NCBI RefSeq assembly: GCF_008831545.1
Contig: NZ_CP044523.1
Span: 930,001 to 994,000, forward strand
Reading direction: 5' to 3'
Origin: Halorussus halophilus
GTDB taxonomy: Archaea; Halobacteriota; Halobacteria; Halobacteriales; Haladaptataceae
DNA: 64,000 nucleotides
Numbering within the stretch: the first letter of the stretch is position 1; every line of letters starts with the position of its first letter. Both the position numbers and the translations under genes were made by a program. Below the pieces are notes generated by a model. That model ran no database searches and had not been told where the DNA came from. It worked only from the letters and a program-made list of their open reading frames with translations. Of the stretch, positions 1,499-49,018 are shown piece after piece.

Positions 1499-1517
1499 GC
1501 CCCCCGTCATAAATCCG
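1499..1517 (-). promoter_or_regulatory. TATA element for the DUF7115-like gene
   Basis: On the minus strand the sequence gatttatgac is centred about 28 bases before the start codon at 1483, the distance expected for a leaderless haloarchaeal transcript. Confidence 0.4.
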
Positions 1518-1597
1518 CCGGGTGGCCGGTCGGCTACTGGTCACTTTATCGAGTAAAATCCCCGTGCGAAACGGTGCCGGAGCAGGCCGAGATGAGA

Positions 1598-1607
1598 ACT
1601 TTAAAGG
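1598..1607 (+). promoter_or_regulatory. TATA box of tRNA-Met
   Basis: The element ctttaaagg lies about 30 bases before the first base of the tRNA at 1633, the canonical archaeal TATA spacing. Confidence 0.6.
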
Positions 1608-1632
1608 CTACCACCTCCCTACCGAAAAGTGA

Positions 1633-1784
1633 GCCCGGGTGGCTTAGCTGGACATAGCGCCGCACTCATAGGGTTCTGAGATTCGGTGCGTTTCAGGCCT
1701 TGGAAGCCTCCCATGTCTACGAGGACCGCCGAGCCTCGTACCTGAGACATGCGGAGATCGAGGGTTCGGAGCCCTCCCCGGGCA
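1633..1784 (+). tRNA. Elongator tRNA-Met (CAU) with intron
   Basis: The acceptor arms GCCCGGG (1633-1639) and CCCGGGC (1777-1783) pair, with discriminator A at 1784. The anticodon stem is CCGCA (1660-1664) with TGCGG (1750-1754), the loop begins CTCATA with anticodon CAT at 1667-1669, and the T arm is GAGGG-TTCGGAG-CCCTC (1760-1776). An intron of about 78 bases (1671-1748) interrupts the loop after position 37, the usual site for haloarchaeal introns removed by the splicing endonuclease at a bulge-helix-bulge. The elongator tRNA-Met of Haloferax is also known to carry an intron of about this size. A TATA box sits 30 bases upstream. The tRNA does not encode CCA. Confidence 0.93.
1671..1748 (+). 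other. tRNA-Met intron
   Basis: About 78 bases lie between anticodon-loop position 37 (A1670) and position 38 (A1749). Removing them gives a standard 7-base anticodon loop CTCATAA closed by a 5-bp stem. The exact ends could shift by a base because the cut sites are inferred from the loop geometry only. Confidence 0.8.
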
Positions 1785-1785
1785 T
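1763..1785 (+). repeat. Attachment-site-like direct repeat, copy 1 (tRNA-Met 3' end)
   Basis: These 23 bases (T loop to acceptor end plus one base) recur exactly at 1918-1940. Duplication of a tRNA 3' end is the standard scar of integration by a tyrosine-recombinase element. Confidence 0.75.
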
Positions 1786-1917
1786 TTTCACATTCATCAC
1801 GAATCTCGTGTGAGTGATAACGCTGAAAAATGACCGCGAATAGGCGAAGAGCCCGTAGGTTCTCGGCGAACGGAGTGAGCCGAGAGCAGGAAAGGCGAGC
1901 GAAGCGAGTCTTTCCGT
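1786..1917. other. Remnant between tRNA-derived repeats, with hairpins
   Basis: This 132-bp stretch between the two tRNA-derived repeats contains no credible gene. It holds two hairpin-forming sequences: an interrupted pairing of tctcgg with ccgaga near 1860-1886, and one formed by ggaaag...ctttcc around 1889-1915 with a cgagcgaagcgag core typical of haloarchaeal intergenic repeats. It is best read as what is left after loss of an integrated element. Confidence 0.5.
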
Positions 1918-1940
1918 GGTTCGGAGCCCTCCCCGGGCAT
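1918..1940 (+). repeat. Attachment-site-like direct repeat, copy 2
   Basis: An exact 23-base copy of 1763-1785, starting GGTTCGGAG and ending CCGGGCAT, lies 155 bp downstream of the tRNA copy. It ends 31 bases from the stop codon of the phiH1-repressor-like gene. Confidence 0.75.
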
Positions 1941-1971
1941 CAATTTTCGATTCGTCGCTCGCTCCGTCGAG

Positions 1972-2235
1972 CTACTGCTCGCTCTCTCGTTCGAGCGTCT
2001 CCGGGTCTACCTCACCTGCGAGATACGCTCTGCCGACCGAGCTAATGGTGTAGATATCGCTCCCGAGGTGTTCGACTAGTCCGTACGCGGCGAGTTCTCG
2101 ACACCGCTGTTCGACCTGTTCGCGGCGCAAGGGCAACTGTGCGGCGACGCTGCTGAACGTGTCTTTACGCTCGTCGCGAAGCAGTGCGAGCAAGTGGTCG
2201 TCCACTGGCCGCATCCAGTCTGCTCGCCGTCGCAT
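1972..2235 (-). CDS. PhiH1 repressor-like winged-helix protein
   Basis: 87 residues. The start MRRRADWMRPVDDHLLALLRD followed by a helix-turn-helix (about residues 28-55, SSVAAQLPLRREQVEQRCREL) and a wing (LVEHLGSDIYTISSVGRAYL) matches the small ArsR/PhiH1-repressor-like wHTH proteins that are common in haloarchaeal viruses, plasmids and integrated elements. These bind DNA as repressors. Here it points towards the tRNA and ends just beyond the duplicated attachment site, so it may be the last gene left from the integrated element. Its target is not visible. Confidence 0.75.
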   Translation of the reverse strand: MRRRADWMRPVDDHLLALLRDERKDTFSSVAAQLPLRREQVEQRCRELAAYGLVEHLGSDIYTISSVGRAYLAGEVDPETLERESEQ

Positions 2236-43749: not shown

Positions 43750-44463
43750 ATGACAGAATCGACGGACCCCCGCGCGGACCTCGCGGAACGCGTCGCGGGA
43801 GAGATAACGCTCTCGGAGGACCCCGGCGCGACCCTGCGCAAGTGGCGGACCGACTTCGGCGTCTCCCAGACCGACCTCGCGGACCACCTCGACGTGTCGT
43901 CGTCGGTCATCAGCGACTACGAGAGCGGTCGCCGCGAGAGTCCTGGCATCGGGGTCGTCGCGCGCATAGTCAACGCATTGCTCGACATCGACGAACAGCG
44001 CGGCGGCGACCGCATCCGCCAGTACGCTCGGGTCCTCTCGGCCGGTTTCGAGAGCGACATCGTCAGCGACCTGCGCGAGTACCCGACGACGTTCCAGTTG
44101 GAGCGCTTCTACGACGCCATCGGCGCGACAGAACTCACCAGCGGCGACCACGACCACGTGACAGGCCACACCGTCATCGACAGCATCCAAGCCATCACGC
44201 GACTGTCCAGCGAGGAGTTCTACCGCCTCTACGGCCAGAGTACGAGTCGAGCGTTGATGTTCACCAACGTCACGCGCGGGGAGTCGCCGCTGGTCGCCAT
44301 GCGCGTCGTCAACCCGACGCCGAACGCCGTCGTCCTTCACGGCATCGACCGCGAGGCGTTGTGGGACCACGCGCCGAAGATGGCCCAACTCGACGGCTTC
44401 TCGCTGGCGGTTACCGACGACCCGCTGGACGAGATATTGGAGTCGCTGCGGGAGTTACCCTGA
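43750..44463 (+). CDS. XRE-type transcription regulator with C-terminal ligand domain
   Basis: 237 residues from ATG 43750. Residues about 28-80 are an HTH of the Xre/Cro type (LRKWRTDFGVSQTDLADHLDVSSSVISDYESGRRESPGIGVVARIV). The remaining 150 residues are a conserved archaeal effector domain (TTFQLERFYDAIGATEL...LFTNVTRGESPLVAMRVVNPTPNAVVLHGI, here RALMFTNVTRGES) of the COG1709 type. It ends 112 bases before the proteasome operon and could be its regulator, since a long palindrome lies between them. That is inference from position only. Confidence 0.88.
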   Translation: MTESTDPRADLAERVAGEITLSEDPGATLRKWRTDFGVSQTDLADHLDVSSSVISDYESGRRESPGIGVVARIVNALLDIDEQRGGDRIRQYARVLSAGFESDIVSDLREYPTTFQLERFYDAIGATELTSGDHDHVTGHTVIDSIQAITRLSSEEFYRLYGQSTSRALMFTNVTRGESPLVAMRVVNPTPNAVVLHGIDREALWDHAPKMAQLDGFSLAVTDDPLDEILESLRELP

Positions 44464-44520: not shown

Positions 44521-44540
44521 AGCTAAAATATATTTTAGCT
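44521..44540. promoter_or_regulatory. 20-bp perfect palindrome covering the proteasome promoter
   Basis: AGCTAAAATATATTTTAGCT reads the same on both strands and contains the likely TATA box. Its centre is about 45 bases before ATG 44576. A protein bound here would block TATA-binding protein, so this is a strong operator candidate for the proteasome operon. Confidence 0.7.
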
Positions 44541-44575
44541 AACATTTTTTGAGTCGTAGCGTCTACCAACTATCG

Positions 44576-45265
44576 ATGCCCGACCCAACCAACTCCCCGA
44601 ACTTCGGGACGGACTCGCCGAACGCGGGGGCCGACGTGCTCAAGACCGGTACGACGACCGTCGCGCTCACGGCCGCGGACGGCGTCGTCCTCGCGGCCGA
44701 CCAGCGCGCGAGTCTCGGTGGCCGTCTCGTCAGCAGCAAAGACATGCAGAAAGTCGAGCAGGTGCATCCGACCGCCGCGCTGACGCTCTCCGGCGCTGTC
44801 GGCGAACTCCAAGAGTACGTCCGGCAACTCCGCTCGAAGGTGGACCTCTACAAGACGCGCCGAGGTAACCCGCCGTCGATGCACGCCACCGCGACGTTCG
44901 CAGGAAACCTGCTCCGACACGGTCCGTACCGCGCCGCACAGTTGACCCTGGGCGGCGTCGATTCGGACGGGCAACAGGTCTACAGTTTCGACGCCGGCGG
45001 TGGCGTCACCGAGTCGCCATACGCCGCTGGCGGCAGTGGCATGCAACTGGCCTACGGCGTCCTCGAACGCGAGTTCGACGCCGAGATGACCATCGAGGAG
45101 GCGCGAGTCGTCGCTGCCCGCGCCATCGAATCGGCCAGCGAACGCGACACTGCGAGCGGGAACGGCCTTACGCTCGCAGAAGTGACTGCCGATGGCGTCG
45201 AACTCGACAGCTACGAGGACCCAGCGAGCGTCGCTGGTGACGATAGTATCGGGGAGGTGGCCTGA
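44576..45265 (+). CDS. psmB: 20S proteasome beta subunit
   Basis: 229 residues from ATG 44576. A propeptide of about 25 residues ends at LKTG, leaving catalytic Thr26 as the new N-terminus (TTTVALTAADGVVLAADQRAS). Asp of AADQR and Lys in SSKDMQKV are the other active-site residues, the latter after one extra residue (LGGRLVSSK) relative to familiar haloarchaeal beta subunits. The end has ASERDTASGNGLTLAEVT as in other members. It forms the proteolytic inner rings. It is followed, with one-base stop/start overlap, by an alpha gene, and sits behind a palindromic promoter. Confidence 0.93.
   Translation: MPDPTNSPNFGTDSPNAGADVLKTGTTTVALTAADGVVLAADQRASLGGRLVSSKDMQKVEQVHPTAALTLSGAVGELQEYVRQLRSKVDLYKTRRGNPPSMHATATFAGNLLRHGPYRAAQLTLGGVDSDGQQVYSFDAGGGVTESPYAAGGSGMQLAYGVLEREFDAEMTIEEARVVAARAIESASERDTASGNGLTLAEVTADGVELDSYEDPASVAGDDSIGEVA
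45252..45259 (+). promoter_or_regulatory. Ribosome binding site of the proteasome alpha gene
   Basis: A ggggaggtg stretch at the end of the beta gene lies just upstream of ATG 45265, supporting translational coupling. Confidence 0.5.
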
Positions 45266-46005
45266 TGCAAGACAACCAGCAGGCGTACGACCGCGGGACG
45301 AGCATCTTCTCGCCCGACGGGCGACTGTATCAGGTCGAGTACGCCCGCGAAGCGGTCAAGCGTGGCAGCGCCAGCGTGGGCGTGAAGACCAGAGAGGGCG
45401 TCGTGTTGGCGGCCCGCCGTAGAGTCCGGTCGTCGCTGATGGACCCCGATAGCGTCGAGAAACTGCACGAAATCGACGGCCACCTCGGCGTCGCCAGCGC
45501 GGGCCACGCGGCAGACGCACGCCAACTGGTCGAGTTCGCGCGCGAGGCCGCCCAGCGGGAGCGTCTCCGATTCGACGAACCGCTCGGCGTCGAGACGCTG
45601 ACCAAGGAACTGGCCGACCACGTGCAGGAGTACACCCAGAAAGGTGGTGCGCGGCCGTTCGGTACGGCACTGCTCGTGGGCGGTATCGGTGACTCGGGAC
45701 CCGCACTCTACGAGACCGACCCCAGCGGCACGCCCTCGGCGTGGAACGCCGCGGCGGTGGGCCGCAACAGCGCCGAGATTCAGGACTACCTCGAAGCGGA
45801 GTACGTCGCGGACGCCGACCTCGAATCGGGCGTCGATTTAGCGCTGTCGGCACTGGCGGCCCCGACAGAGGACGGGTTCGACACTGCGGACGTGGGGATT
45901 GCGACAGTGACCAACGCGAACGGATACCGGCAACTCGACGAGGACGAGCGTCGCGAGCGACTCGACGCGCTCGGGTTGCTGGACGACGGTCAGCAAGCGT
46001 CTTAG
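45265..46005 (+). CDS. psmA: 20S proteasome alpha subunit
   Basis: 246 residues. The N-terminal alpha signature YDRGTSIFSPDGRLYQVEYAREAVKRGSASVGVKT is nearly canonical, including residues of the gate. Lys of SVEKLHEID matches the pocket that receives the activator ATPase tail. GGARPFGTALLVGG and LYETDPSGTPSAWNAAAVG are typical. It forms the outer rings that gate access for PAN/Cdc48-type ATPases. The common haloarchaeal psmA genes are, as far as I know, not next to psmB, so this pair may be an additional, separately controlled proteasome. The stop overlaps that of the convergent gene (TTAG). Confidence 0.93.
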   Translation: MQDNQQAYDRGTSIFSPDGRLYQVEYAREAVKRGSASVGVKTREGVVLAARRRVRSSLMDPDSVEKLHEIDGHLGVASAGHAADARQLVEFAREAAQRERLRFDEPLGVETLTKELADHVQEYTQKGGARPFGTALLVGGIGDSGPALYETDPSGTPSAWNAAAVGRNSAEIQDYLEAEYVADADLESGVDLALSALAAPTEDGFDTADVGIATVTNANGYRQLDEDERRERLDALGLLDDGQQAS

Positions 46006-46994
46006 CTGGCCTGCTGTGTGTTCCGGCGGCGCGTCTCGGCGACGGTGAGGTCTCCGGCGACGAAGACGCCTAACTCCTCGTCGTCTAGTTGCGCGCTCAC
46101 CCTCACGCACCACGGGTCCGTCGAGAGGACCGTCTCCCGCCACTCGTCGCCGACGTTCCAGATGGGCCGGTCGCGGACGTTCTCGCCGTGGTCGTGGTAG
46201 AACGCTATCACGGCAGGGTGTTCGAGGACCGCGAGCGTCACCGGACAGTTGAGTTCGCAACCACACTGTTGGCAGTCGAGTGTGACTTGTGCTTGCTGAG
46301 AGTCCGCGTCGGTTTCCGTGGAGGTACCGGTCTGACGTTTGCCCACGAGTGCGAGCGTGGCGTCCATCTTCGCCGCGCACTCTGGACAGATACCGTCGGA
46401 CATGACCGACAGGCGGTGGCGATGGTGGCGGTCGAAGGCTTCGAGGAGGTCGGCGGTATCACGGTCGCGCTGGGCACCCGGCGGGAACGGCAGCGTGAGA
46501 ATTCCTTGTCGGCAGTCAGTGCAGGCGACCGTGACGTAGTTGGCTTCGCAGGTCGCGGCTAAGTTCCCATCCTCGCAAAGCGGACAGTCCTCGCCCATCT
46601 CGACTGGCCCGAACGACACGCGGTCAGTGTACGTCCCGGCGACGATGGCGCGGGCGACCTGCAACCCGGCGTAGGTCAGCGCGTAGCGGTCTTCCTCTTC
46701 GCCGGTCTTGCGGAGATAGAGGTCGGTCAGTTGCCGGAGGTGGTAGGCGAACCCGGCAGTCGTGTCGGCGGAACTCTCTTCGAAGAGTTCCGAGAACGTC
46801 ATCGTAGTGCCGGAGACGGATTCGTCGGCGTCGTCTACGAGCGCCCGGAGGACTGCCATCCGGACCTCGTTGCCGAGCGCGTCGAAGGCGTCGCTCGCCG
46901 GGACGGACTCGACTTCGGGGGTGGGTTCGGGGGTTTCGGTGGGTGGCGTTTCAGGAGTGACTTCGCCAACGTCCTCGGCCCCGGCATCGCTCAT
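46002..46994 (-). CDS. ArsR-like winged-helix protein with zinc-ribbon sites (DUF7351-like)
   Basis: 330 residues. After a Pro/Glu/Thr-rich N-terminus comes a wHTH (SDAFDALGNEVRMAVLRALVDD...TFSELFEESSADTTAGFAYHLRQLTDLYLRK). Two Cys clusters follow: CPLCEDGNLAATC...VACTDC at about 136-160, and CPECAAKM...CQQCGCELNC at about 199-247. These are likely zinc ribbons. The closing DPWCVRVSAQLDDEELGVFVAGDLTV is a small beta-domain. It is probably a transcription regulator. Convergent with the proteasome alpha gene with a 4-base overlap of the stop codons. Confidence 0.85.
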   Translation of the reverse strand: MSDAGAEDVGEVTPETPPTETPEPTPEVESVPASDAFDALGNEVRMAVLRALVDDADESVSGTTMTFSELFEESSADTTAGFAYHLRQLTDLYLRKTGEEEDRYALTYAGLQVARAIVAGTYTDRVSFGPVEMGEDCPLCEDGNLAATCEANYVTVACTDCRQGILTLPFPPGAQRDRDTADLLEAFDRHHRHRLSVMSDGICPECAAKMDATLALVGKRQTGTSTETDADSQQAQVTLDCQQCGCELNCPVTLAVLEHPAVIAFYHDHGENVRDRPIWNVGDEWRETVLSTDPWCVRVSAQLDDEELGVFVAGDLTVAETRRRNTQQAS

Positions 46995-47332: not shown

Positions 47333-47573
47333 TACTGAGCAACGCAGTCGGATGGGGAGGGACGCGAGGCGCGCGGGCGGTCACGCGAGCGAATGCGAGG
47401 GTGGCCTCGGCGGACGCGGTTTGTCCTCCGGTGGTGCGGAGAGCGGGCCTCGGTTAGTGAGCGGTGGAGCCGCGAACGTGTGGCTGATGCGGTTGGCGGT
47501 GCTGTGCGGTCTCGCCTTTGCACCGGCATCAGTGCTATTCTCGTTGTCGTCAATCTCTCCGTCCTGTTCCACC

Positions 47574-47605
47574 TGCTGATGGCAGTAACTGCTGATGGCA
47601 GTAAC
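47574..47605 (+). repeat. 16-base tandem direct repeat
   Basis: TGCTGATGGCAGTAAC is present twice in immediate succession (47574-47589 and 47590-47605). The 9-mer ggcagtaac also occurs at 47212-47220. Confidence 0.7.
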
Positions 47606-47680
47606 TAGCTCCAACTAACCCATCTGCCATCCCAAGACAAGAACAAAGAAAACAGAAACTACCGCTACCAAACGCCCGCT

Positions 47681-49018
47681 TTATTCCACGAAGTCGTACA
47701 TTCGCTCGTTCATGCGCCCGCGACCGGTGAACACGAACTCGCCGTCGGGAACCGTGAAGTCCTCGATCTCGATGGTCTTGTCGTGGTTGTGTCGGTCGTG
47801 GACCTTCTCGTACTCTTCGAACGAGAGGTCGTAGCGGTCCTCGATTTGGGCGTCGATGTTACTCGCCTCGATTTCGTCCTTCCAGCCGTCCTGCACGGTC
47901 TCGGCGTGGACTTCTGCCTGTGCGCCCGAACCGTAGGAGCCGACCAACAGACGCTTGCCTGTGAGGTCGATGCCCTCGTTGAGGGCGTGGCGGAGCGCGC
48001 TGGCGCGGGCGATGTGGACCGAGCCAGTGTACCAGTTGCCGACCTCGCGGGAGATGGAGAGGGTCGGGTCGATGGTGTTGCCGTACCACTCGCGGTACTG
48101 GTCGGTCTCTTTCAGTTTGTCCATGTAGTCCCGGATGGCTTCCTCGTAGGCTTCGCGGTCCTCAAACTCGTCCTCGCGGGGCTGGAAGCCGATTTCGTCG
48201 GCCAGTTCCTCTTCGACGGTGGTGTCTCGAATCATGTGGCGGTAACCGAGCAGGCCAGCCTTCCGAACCATACCGGGGAACGGCGTGTGGAACGGGATGT
48301 ACTCGAAGTCGTCGGGATGGGTGTCGCCCGAGACGGATTCGAAGTCCTCCACTGCCTCGCGCATGCGTGCGAGGTACACCTGCATCGAGCGCTTGCCGTC
48401 CACGCTCGGGAACTGCTGGTTCGGTTTGAGGAAGTCCGTCTCGTCCGCAGAGCCGTACCCCTGCTCGGTGGAGAGTTCCAGCACGCTGGGGTCCTCGGAG
48501 ATGAGCATGGCGACTGCGCCCGCACCCTGCGTCGCCTCGCCGGGGTCGCCGCGGGCGTAGAGCGCCGTATCAGTCGCAACCACGAGCGCCGAGCGACCAC
48601 GGTTGCGGCCTGCTTTGATCCAGTTGTAGGCGTCGTCGATGGCCTGCGTCCCGGCGACGCAGGCGAACTTGCGTTCGCCCTTGTTCGCGTGGTGGAAGTC
48701 CCCGTCGTACACCTGTTCGAGACAGCCCGCGATGTACGTCGAGACGGGCTTGGAGTTGTCGAACGCGCTCTCGGTGGCAACGTCGATGCGGCCGATGTCG
48801 TCGGGCGTCAGTCCCTTGCGGTCCATCAGTCGGTGGGCCGCGTTCGCGCCCATCGTTACGATGTCCTCGTGAGCGTCCGGGAACGAACTGGCGTTTAGTC
48901 CGAGTCCTTTCGTGTACTTCTCGGGGTCCTCGCCCTTCTCGGGCGCGAACGTGTTCGGCAGGTCCAGTTTCAGCTTCCCCGTCCAGATTTCGATGGCGTC
49001 GATACCGACGGCTGTCAT
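47681..49018 (-). CDS. Hydroxymethylglutaryl-CoA synthase
   Basis: 445 residues, the length of haloarchaeal enzymes. Catalytic residues of the thiolase-like fold are in place: Glu83 in VATESAFD, Cys120 in KFACVAGTQA and His244 in IPFHTPFPGM. The latter part has GNTIDPTLSISREVGNWYTGSVHIARASALRHAL and LLVGSYGSGAQAEV. It condenses acetyl-CoA with acetoacetyl-CoA to HMG-CoA, the first committed precursor of the mevalonate pathway for archaeal isoprenoid lipids. It stands alone, 60 bases from the divergent-facing pilin-like gene. Confidence 0.95.
   Translation of the reverse strand: MTAVGIDAIEIWTGKLKLDLPNTFAPEKGEDPEKYTKGLGLNASSFPDAHEDIVTMGANAAHRLMDRKGLTPDDIGRIDVATESAFDNSKPVSTYIAGCLEQVYDGDFHHANKGERKFACVAGTQAIDDAYNWIKAGRNRGRSALVVATDTALYARGDPGEATQGAGAVAMLISEDPSVLELSTEQGYGSADETDFLKPNQQFPSVDGKRSMQVYLARMREAVEDFESVSGDTHPDDFEYIPFHTPFPGMVRKAGLLGYRHMIRDTTVEEELADEIGFQPREDEFEDREAYEEAIRDYMDKLKETDQYREWYGNTIDPTLSISREVGNWYTGSVHIARASALRHALNEGIDLTGKRLLVGSYGSGAQAEVHAETVQDGWKDEIEASNIDAQIEDRYDLSFEEYEKVHDRHNHDKTIEIEDFTVPDGEFVFTGRGRMNERMYDFVE

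Follow-up and report, generated by a model that had tools for sequence, protein, structure and literature searches.

A probable second 20S proteasome with its own candidate regulator as a conserved module of haloarchaea

Background

Archaea often carry two or three alpha or beta subunits of the 20S proteasome, and the effect of this multiplicity on proteolysis is mostly unknown (PMC13022661). In Natrialba magadii, a second 20S operon (Nmag_0515-0514) joins an alpha and a beta gene, in addition to canonical genes that stand apart (PMC3403918). In Haloferax volcanii, the subunit alpha2 (psmA2/psmC) becomes more abundant in stationary phase, and cells whose proteasomes are all of the alpha2-beta type tolerate hypochlorite better (PMC2910475, PMC6267482). 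Outside the archaea, a bacterium with two alpha and two beta genes provides a prokaryotic likeness in subunit count, and the eukaryotic immunoproteasome, with conditional catalytic subunits beside a constitutive set, may be similar in outline.

The locus described here lies in a 64,000-nt window of the Halorussus halophilus genome (C1:930001-994000), which is the whole stretch of DNA that was analysed and to which the positions below refer unless a contig is named; the genome measures 4.45 Mb in four contigs and is 99.98% complete. Like the N. magadii operon, the Halorussus pair is a linked second set beside separate canonical alpha and beta genes, and its psmA2, like H. volcanii alpha2, encodes an alternative alpha subunit; however, a Haloferax-type genome that lacks the module has just a single beta, unlike the Halorussus genomes that carry it. 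The N. magadii paper gives only a gene list and deals with neither an operator nor a regulator, clade or distribution (PMC3403918). The review of the two-alpha/two-beta bacterial case describes no dedicated dyad and regulator such as those of the Halorussus module, and the regulation of the immunoproteasome is not homologous, the accessory pocket residues here being largely canonical-like. In openly licensed PubMed Central papers, no description of the dyad, regulator, clade, distribution or conserved module was found, and on second proteasomes of haloarchaea with a regulator the same literature yielded only the N. magadii gene list. As far as that literature goes, the linked second set in N. 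magadii was known before, and what appears to be new is the module as a conserved unit, with its dyad and candidate regulator.

Data and methods

The comparative sample comprised 392 Halobacteriales genomes, one per species, some of them incomplete. A separate set of named genomes was searched with a single beta query, which returned no match, and with an alignment of the regulator, which returned matches; the named relatives (H. salinisoli, H. litoreus and H. aquaticus) place the genome in Halorussus. Quick trees of the beta and alpha subunits were checked by careful ones, and the regulator tree is a quick tree. Two mis-trimmed rows in the first quick beta tree (L122 and L138) were excluded from later trees. 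E-values, shuffles and support values are reported as given by the tools.

Results and discussion

The psmB2-psmA2 pair and the canonical genes

The first gene of the pair, psmB2 (44576..45265, forward strand), encodes an accessory 20S proteasome beta subunit of 229 aa and is followed on the same strand by psmA2 (45265..46005), which encodes an accessory alpha subunit of 246 aa. Both products are proteasome subunits of full length (PF00227 at E 4e-43 and 2e-52) and match archaeal subunits in the PDB (E to 8e-40 for psmB2 and 2e-59 for psmA2), with psmA2 also carrying the N-terminal signature Proteasome_A_N (PF10584, E 8e-13). The psmB2 gene runs from ATG at 44576 to TGA at 45265, and psmA2 from ATG at 45265 to TAG at 46005; because the junction reads GGAGGTGGCCTGATGCAA, the two genes have a single base in common (A, 45265). 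This overlap is no chance, as the other Halorussus pairs show TGATG at the junction too. Coordinates, Pfam matches and junction all agree with the first-pass annotation, which had described complete beta and alpha genes in one operon with a one-base overlap. Within the 3' end of psmB2, on the same strand, lies a Shine-Dalgarno-like sequence for psmA2, GGAGGTGG (45253..45260), and GGAGGTGGCCTGATG is conserved at this site in nearly all Halorussus pairs. A Shine-Dalgarno-like site inside psmB2 suggests that the translation of psmA2 is coupled to that of psmB2.

The H. halophilus genome contains five PF00227 genes, namely the psmB2-psmA2 pair, an unlinked alpha, an unlinked beta and a short beta-like ORF on C2. 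The canonical psmA (C1:1077425) and psmB (C1:2245384) are not linked to each other, and psmA2 and psmB2 are 60% and 53% identical to the canonical alpha and beta, respectively. The presence of canonical, unlinked psmA and psmB in the same genome supports the earlier suggestion that the pair might belong to an additional 20S proteasome. Nor do all close relatives share the linkage, which occurs in 10 of 18 Halorussus genomes (H. halophilus included), so that the refuting condition named in the first-pass annotation, a sole pair linked in the same way in every close relative, does not hold. Two genes for PAN-like ATPases are present in the genome, both away from the pair, and no dedicated ATPase gene adjoins psmB2-psmA2 at the locus. 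The short stand-alone ORF (G000:C2:469528-470037; L005, about 1501-2034, forward strand) looks catalytically dead, because by eye it has Ala at Thr1 and K33 is missing; weak PF00227 matches resembling it are present in many relatives.

Catalytic residues and phylogeny of the accessory subunits

Residues 1-25 of psmB2 constitute the propeptide, and the catalytic Thr1 is residue 26 (44651-44653), which is preceded by Gly and aligns with Thr1 of the Archaeoglobus fulgidus subunit. The residues T1, D17, K33, S129, D166 and S169 are found in psmB2 and in all 66 of the aligned accessory betas, and with these residues intact psmB2 is predicted to be catalytically competent. The S1 pocket of the accessory betas shows no clear change of class, its residues being largely canonical-like. 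A GGR insertion after G23 was considered as a marker of accessory betas and rejected, since some canonical betas carry it too.

In a tree of 68 rows, one branch (SH-aLRT 99) set all the dyad-associated betas apart from the others, and the same branch was recovered in a 49-row tree with bootstrap/SH-aLRT support of 100/99, appearing in 100% of the bootstrap trees. Rooted with A. fulgidus, the accessory betas form a clade (100/99) nested within haloarchaeal psmB; the first-pass annotation had asked whether the pair forms its own clade, and for the beta subunit it does. Independent, linked alpha-then-beta pairs from other families (L025, L049, L052, L053 and L054) were rejected as instances of the same module, as their betas fall with canonical psmB, and given these pairs proteasome duplication has arisen several times in haloarchaea. 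Within Halorussus, the accessory subunits are less alike than their canonical counterparts (58-65% identity for beta2 versus 79-83% for beta1, and 73-78% for alpha2 versus 84-89% for alpha1).

The gate and HbYX-pocket residues Y8, D9, R10, P17, Y26, K66 and G80 are present in psmA2, and P17, Y26 and K66 are invariant in 64 of 64 accessory alphas. In the alpha tree, the accessory copies stand apart from the others with SH-aLRT 95, but the separation is weak (71/83) once Haloferax-type alpha2 is added; forcing the accessory alphas and Haloferax-type alpha2 into one clade lowered lnL by 0.15 (p 0.36), so that neither arrangement is rejected. Eight genomes of family f5 keep the dyad, psmB2 and the regulator with no linked alpha, and in six of these eight a second alpha of the Haloferax type lies 8-15 kb from the module (L345-L362). 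Wherever they could be read, the f5, or Haloferacales-type, second alphas contain GTSLFSPDGR, a published H. volcanii alpha2 peptide (PMC2910475, PMC6267482). The proximity of 8-15 kb in six of eight genomes suggests that Haloferax alpha2 shares the history of the module.

An operator-like dyad upstream of psmB2

Upstream of psmB2 lies an operator-like dyad, GCTAAA-ATATAT-TTTAGC (44522..44539, no strand assigned; -54 to -37 relative to the psmB2 ATG), within a perfect 20-bp palindrome, AGCTAAAATATATTTTAGCT, at 44521-44540. The palindrome is unique in the genome even at up to three mismatches, and GCTAAA-N6-TTTAGC occurs in the 4.45 Mb as one exact and one 1-mismatch copy, compared to 14 matches per strand for a reversed-pattern control. 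A genome-wide regulon site was rejected for H. halophilus on the strength of this single exact copy. Across the sample, CTAAAATATATTTTAGCTAA at up to two mismatches was found in 73 of 392 Halobacteriales genomes and 31 of 95 genera (the reversed control gave two matches in all), and in 71 of these 73 genomes it lies directly upstream of an accessory psmB2. Another 23 genomes were found by the regulator only, 22 of which have beta2, and all 22 of their dyads have at most 1/12 mismatches, keeping GCTAAA and TTTAGC, while the six central bases have drifted (e.g., GAGCGT, GGCATC, CCGACG). In the separate named-genome set, the dyad is present at up to 2/12 mismatches in 56 of 57 beta2 loci, the exception being cut by a contig end. 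As background, random 330-nt stretches usually have five mismatches, and the regions upstream of canonical subunits have 3-6. From the kept half-sites, the drifting spacer and the low background, the putative operator can be written as GCTAAA-N6-TTTAGC; its half-sites are conserved upstream of psmB2 from family to family and seldom occur in the rest of the genome, and the dyad is conserved more strongly than the proteins of the module. In Actinarchaeum halophilum, a 1-mismatch palindrome (L128; G226:C2, about 63221) lies upstream of a short ORF that is not a proteasome gene, with the usual promoter geometry (ATG at +55); the module of this species is found elsewhere (L237) and has a drifted dyad.

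Just 3' of the dyad is a TATA-like element with the consensus TAACAxTTWT (44542..44550, forward strand), centred about 29 nt before the psmB2 ATG. Columns 18-25 after the dyad start are conserved over 71 loci, and the distance from dyad start to start codon is 50-55 nt in most loci. A geometry such as this, the dyad spanning roughly -54 to -37 and the TATA-like element lying near -29, is that of leaderless haloarchaeal promoters. The element is accordingly positioned as a probable TATA box, and the spacing suggests that the psmB2-psmA2 mRNA is leaderless or nearly so. As the dyad abuts the BRE, an activator would fit best, but repression would also fit, given the BRE overlap and the ArsR-like fold predicted for the candidate regulator.

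A co-inherited candidate regulator

Tail to tail with psmA2, and overlapping it by 4 nt, is a reverse-strand gene (46002..46994) for a 330-aa protein in which Pfam identifies a winged-helix domain, DUF7347, and a DUF7351 domain with two 4-Cys zinc-ribbon-like clusters. This gene adjoins the pair in families f1, f4, f5, f7, f8, f9 and f13; in genome G003, the zinc-ribbon gene lies about 13 kb from the pair. The H. halophilus genome contains 14 DUF7351 genes, and the linked copies form one clade (SH-aLRT 96) apart from its 13 own paralogs. Exactly one regulator ortholog (E <= 1e-62) is present in each of 87 of the 392 genomes, and the eight Cys in the two clusters of the linked regulator are invariant. 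In a structural model, the winged helix is shaped like those of ArsR/SmtB-type dimeric regulators; Foldseek matched about 90 residues of the model to PagR, HlyU, BigR, SmtB and CadC with TM (target) values of 0.6-0.75 and E above 0.001, Pfam assigning the protein to DUF7347/DUF7351. The linked regulators of f13 (L134-L137) are about 126-129 aa long and retain the winged helix but lack the zinc-ribbon half (DUF7351). This suggests that the conserved role is to bind DNA. No papers mentioning DUF7351 were found in the openly licensed PubMed Central literature.

On the basis of co-inheritance, synteny and the winged-helix model, we propose the DUF7347-DUF7351 protein as the dedicated regulator of psmB2-psmA2. 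The first-pass annotation had suggested that the pair may be specially controlled, for which the conserved dyad and the co-inherited DUF7347-DUF7351 gene now provide strong comparative support, the control itself being deduced from sequence. It had also pointed to a flanking XRE regulator and a zinc-ribbon winged-helix protein; both genes are real, but XRE represents family-level synteny and not a part of the module. At L125 (G007:C3, about 107370) in Halorussus salinisoli, a dyad-like site, ACTAAA-ATGTTT-TTTAGC with a TAACACTTAT extension, adjoins a divergent DUF7347-DUF7351 paralog and no proteasome gene, which hints that related members of the family may bind similar sites.

Distribution, loss and neighbouring genes

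An accessory beta2 behind the dyad was found in 93 of the 392 genomes (71 by the palindrome and 22 by the regulator), and the accessory clade spans at least seven families. Five other Natrialba species in the named-genome set carry this module. Within Halorussus, 10 genomes have the pair, the palindrome and the regulator together, and the other eight sampled (one of them 62% complete) have none of the three. In most of the pair-less genomes, the XRE and HMG-CoA synthase genes are still adjacent (50 nt apart in G009). Loss as a unit is the simpler reading, because sister genera of f1 use the same insertion site. One group of f8 genomes clusters with f4 genomes in all three trees, those of beta, alpha and the regulator, so the unit may have been transferred as a whole. 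At L094 (G379:C1, about 647000), an internal deletion fuses the beginning of psmB2 with the remainder of psmA2 and leaves palindrome and regulator intact, which we read as a decaying module.

Two neighbours in the window lie outside the module. The gene for a 237-aa XRE-type HTH protein (43750..44463, forward strand; HTH_31/HTH_3) was rejected as a module part, as it stays at empty sites and adjoins the pair only in the host family, f1. The HMG-CoA synthase gene (47681..49018, reverse strand) is a flanking synteny marker, 84-88% identical and kept at empty sites; together with a GNAT gene and a YdjM-like membrane gene, it was rejected as a functional partner, these showing family-level synteny only. 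A 16 bp tandem repeat (47573-47606; 2.1 perfect copies of CTGCTGATGGCAGTAA) is located between the regulator and HMG-CoA synthase genes.

Proposed mechanism and alternative explanations

With the dyad always upstream and the same DNA-binding protein nearly always adjacent, the locus resembles a spare proteasome that the cell can do without and that has a switch to itself. It is probable that it represents a dispensable, self-contained haloarchaeal module encoding a second, catalytically competent 20S proteasome that is switched by one dedicated regulator. A DUF7347-DUF7351 homodimer would bind GCTAAA-N6-TTTAGC, directly upstream of and abutting the BRE/TATA, and would set how much leaderless psmB2-psmA2 mRNA is transcribed, its zinc-ribbon half sensing a signal of the redox, metal or starvation type. 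Translation of psmA2 would be coupled to that of psmB2, and the alternative core particle, alpha2-beta2 and possibly mixed with canonical alpha1 or beta1, would be used by the two PAN-like ATPases of the cell. We infer the binding of the regulator to the dyad, the direction of control, the signal and the particle composition from comparisons of this kind. Redox or stationary-phase stress is hinted at as the signal by the eight-Cys zinc-ribbon half and by the behaviour of H. volcanii alpha2, the latter hint holding only if Haloferax alpha2 is related to the module, since it depends on that unproven relation. Against a dedicated neighbour as the switch, the protein that reads the dyad could come from a gene at another locus, as the distant gene in G003 illustrates. 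In addition, a strictly separate alpha2-beta2 particle would not always be possible, because eight Haloferacales-type genomes keep beta2 alone at the dyad.

The same eight genomes, with beta2 at the dyad and no linked alpha2, favour a different arrangement, in which subunits of the module mix into the canonical particle (beta2 with alpha1, alpha2 with beta1) in the manner of inducible subunit exchange. H. volcanii particles of the types alpha1-beta, alpha2-beta and alpha1-alpha2-beta (PMC6267482) are in keeping with such mixing; however, alpha2 and beta2 are apparently translationally coupled neighbours in most module genomes, suggesting joint assembly, and six of the eight beta-only genomes have their second alpha 8-15 kb away, and so we regard mixing as a serious possibility without expecting it. 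A more speculative history, which is conceivable but which we would hold only tentatively, is that an ancient haloarchaeal module of dyad, psmB2, psmA2 and a redox- or metal-sensing regulator, lost or transferred as a unit, switches the 20S core, with Haloferax alpha2 as a leftover after loss of beta2 and regulator.

The remaining explanations would remove the dedicated switch or the special role. The dyad could be a core promoter element of unusual conservation (a symmetric TATA/BRE for a particular TFB/TBP), with the zinc-ribbon gene merely co-inherited, and indeed it is AT-rich, adjoins TAACAxTTWT and keeps a fixed distance to the start codon. This is unlikely, as a core element should recur whereas the dyad has a single exact copy per genome, a separate TATA-like element comes after it, and the drift of the spacer between kept outer half-sites is the pattern of a dimer site and not of a TATA box. 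A recent or redundant duplication, serving gene dosage only or decaying without a special role, might explain why beta2 and alpha2 evolve faster than the canonical genes within Halorussus, why the pair has been lost repeatedly and why one fused, deleted remnant (L094) exists; yet an ancient clade in at least seven families, catalytic residues kept in 66 of 66 betas and a cis element that outlasts the proteins in conservation make this quite improbable. Finally, the upstream XRE-type protein is adjacent to the pair and codirectional with it in f1, where it is 78-90% conserved, but its gene remains in genomes without the pair and was not found by the pair in the other families that share the dyad, so that its acting as the regulator is scarcely credible.

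Conclusions

A search of one Haloferax-type genome did not find the module, and only psmA1, psmA2 and a single psmB are present there; the first-pass statement that these genes are separate in Haloferax is in line with what has been published on the species. If model organisms of this kind lack the module, that would account for its being unstudied. The conserved dyad amounts to a specific binding prediction for the DUF7347-DUF7351 family, to whose Pfam domains no function has been assigned. A second core with an apparent one-target switch would also make it possible to test what an archaeon gains from a second proteasome.
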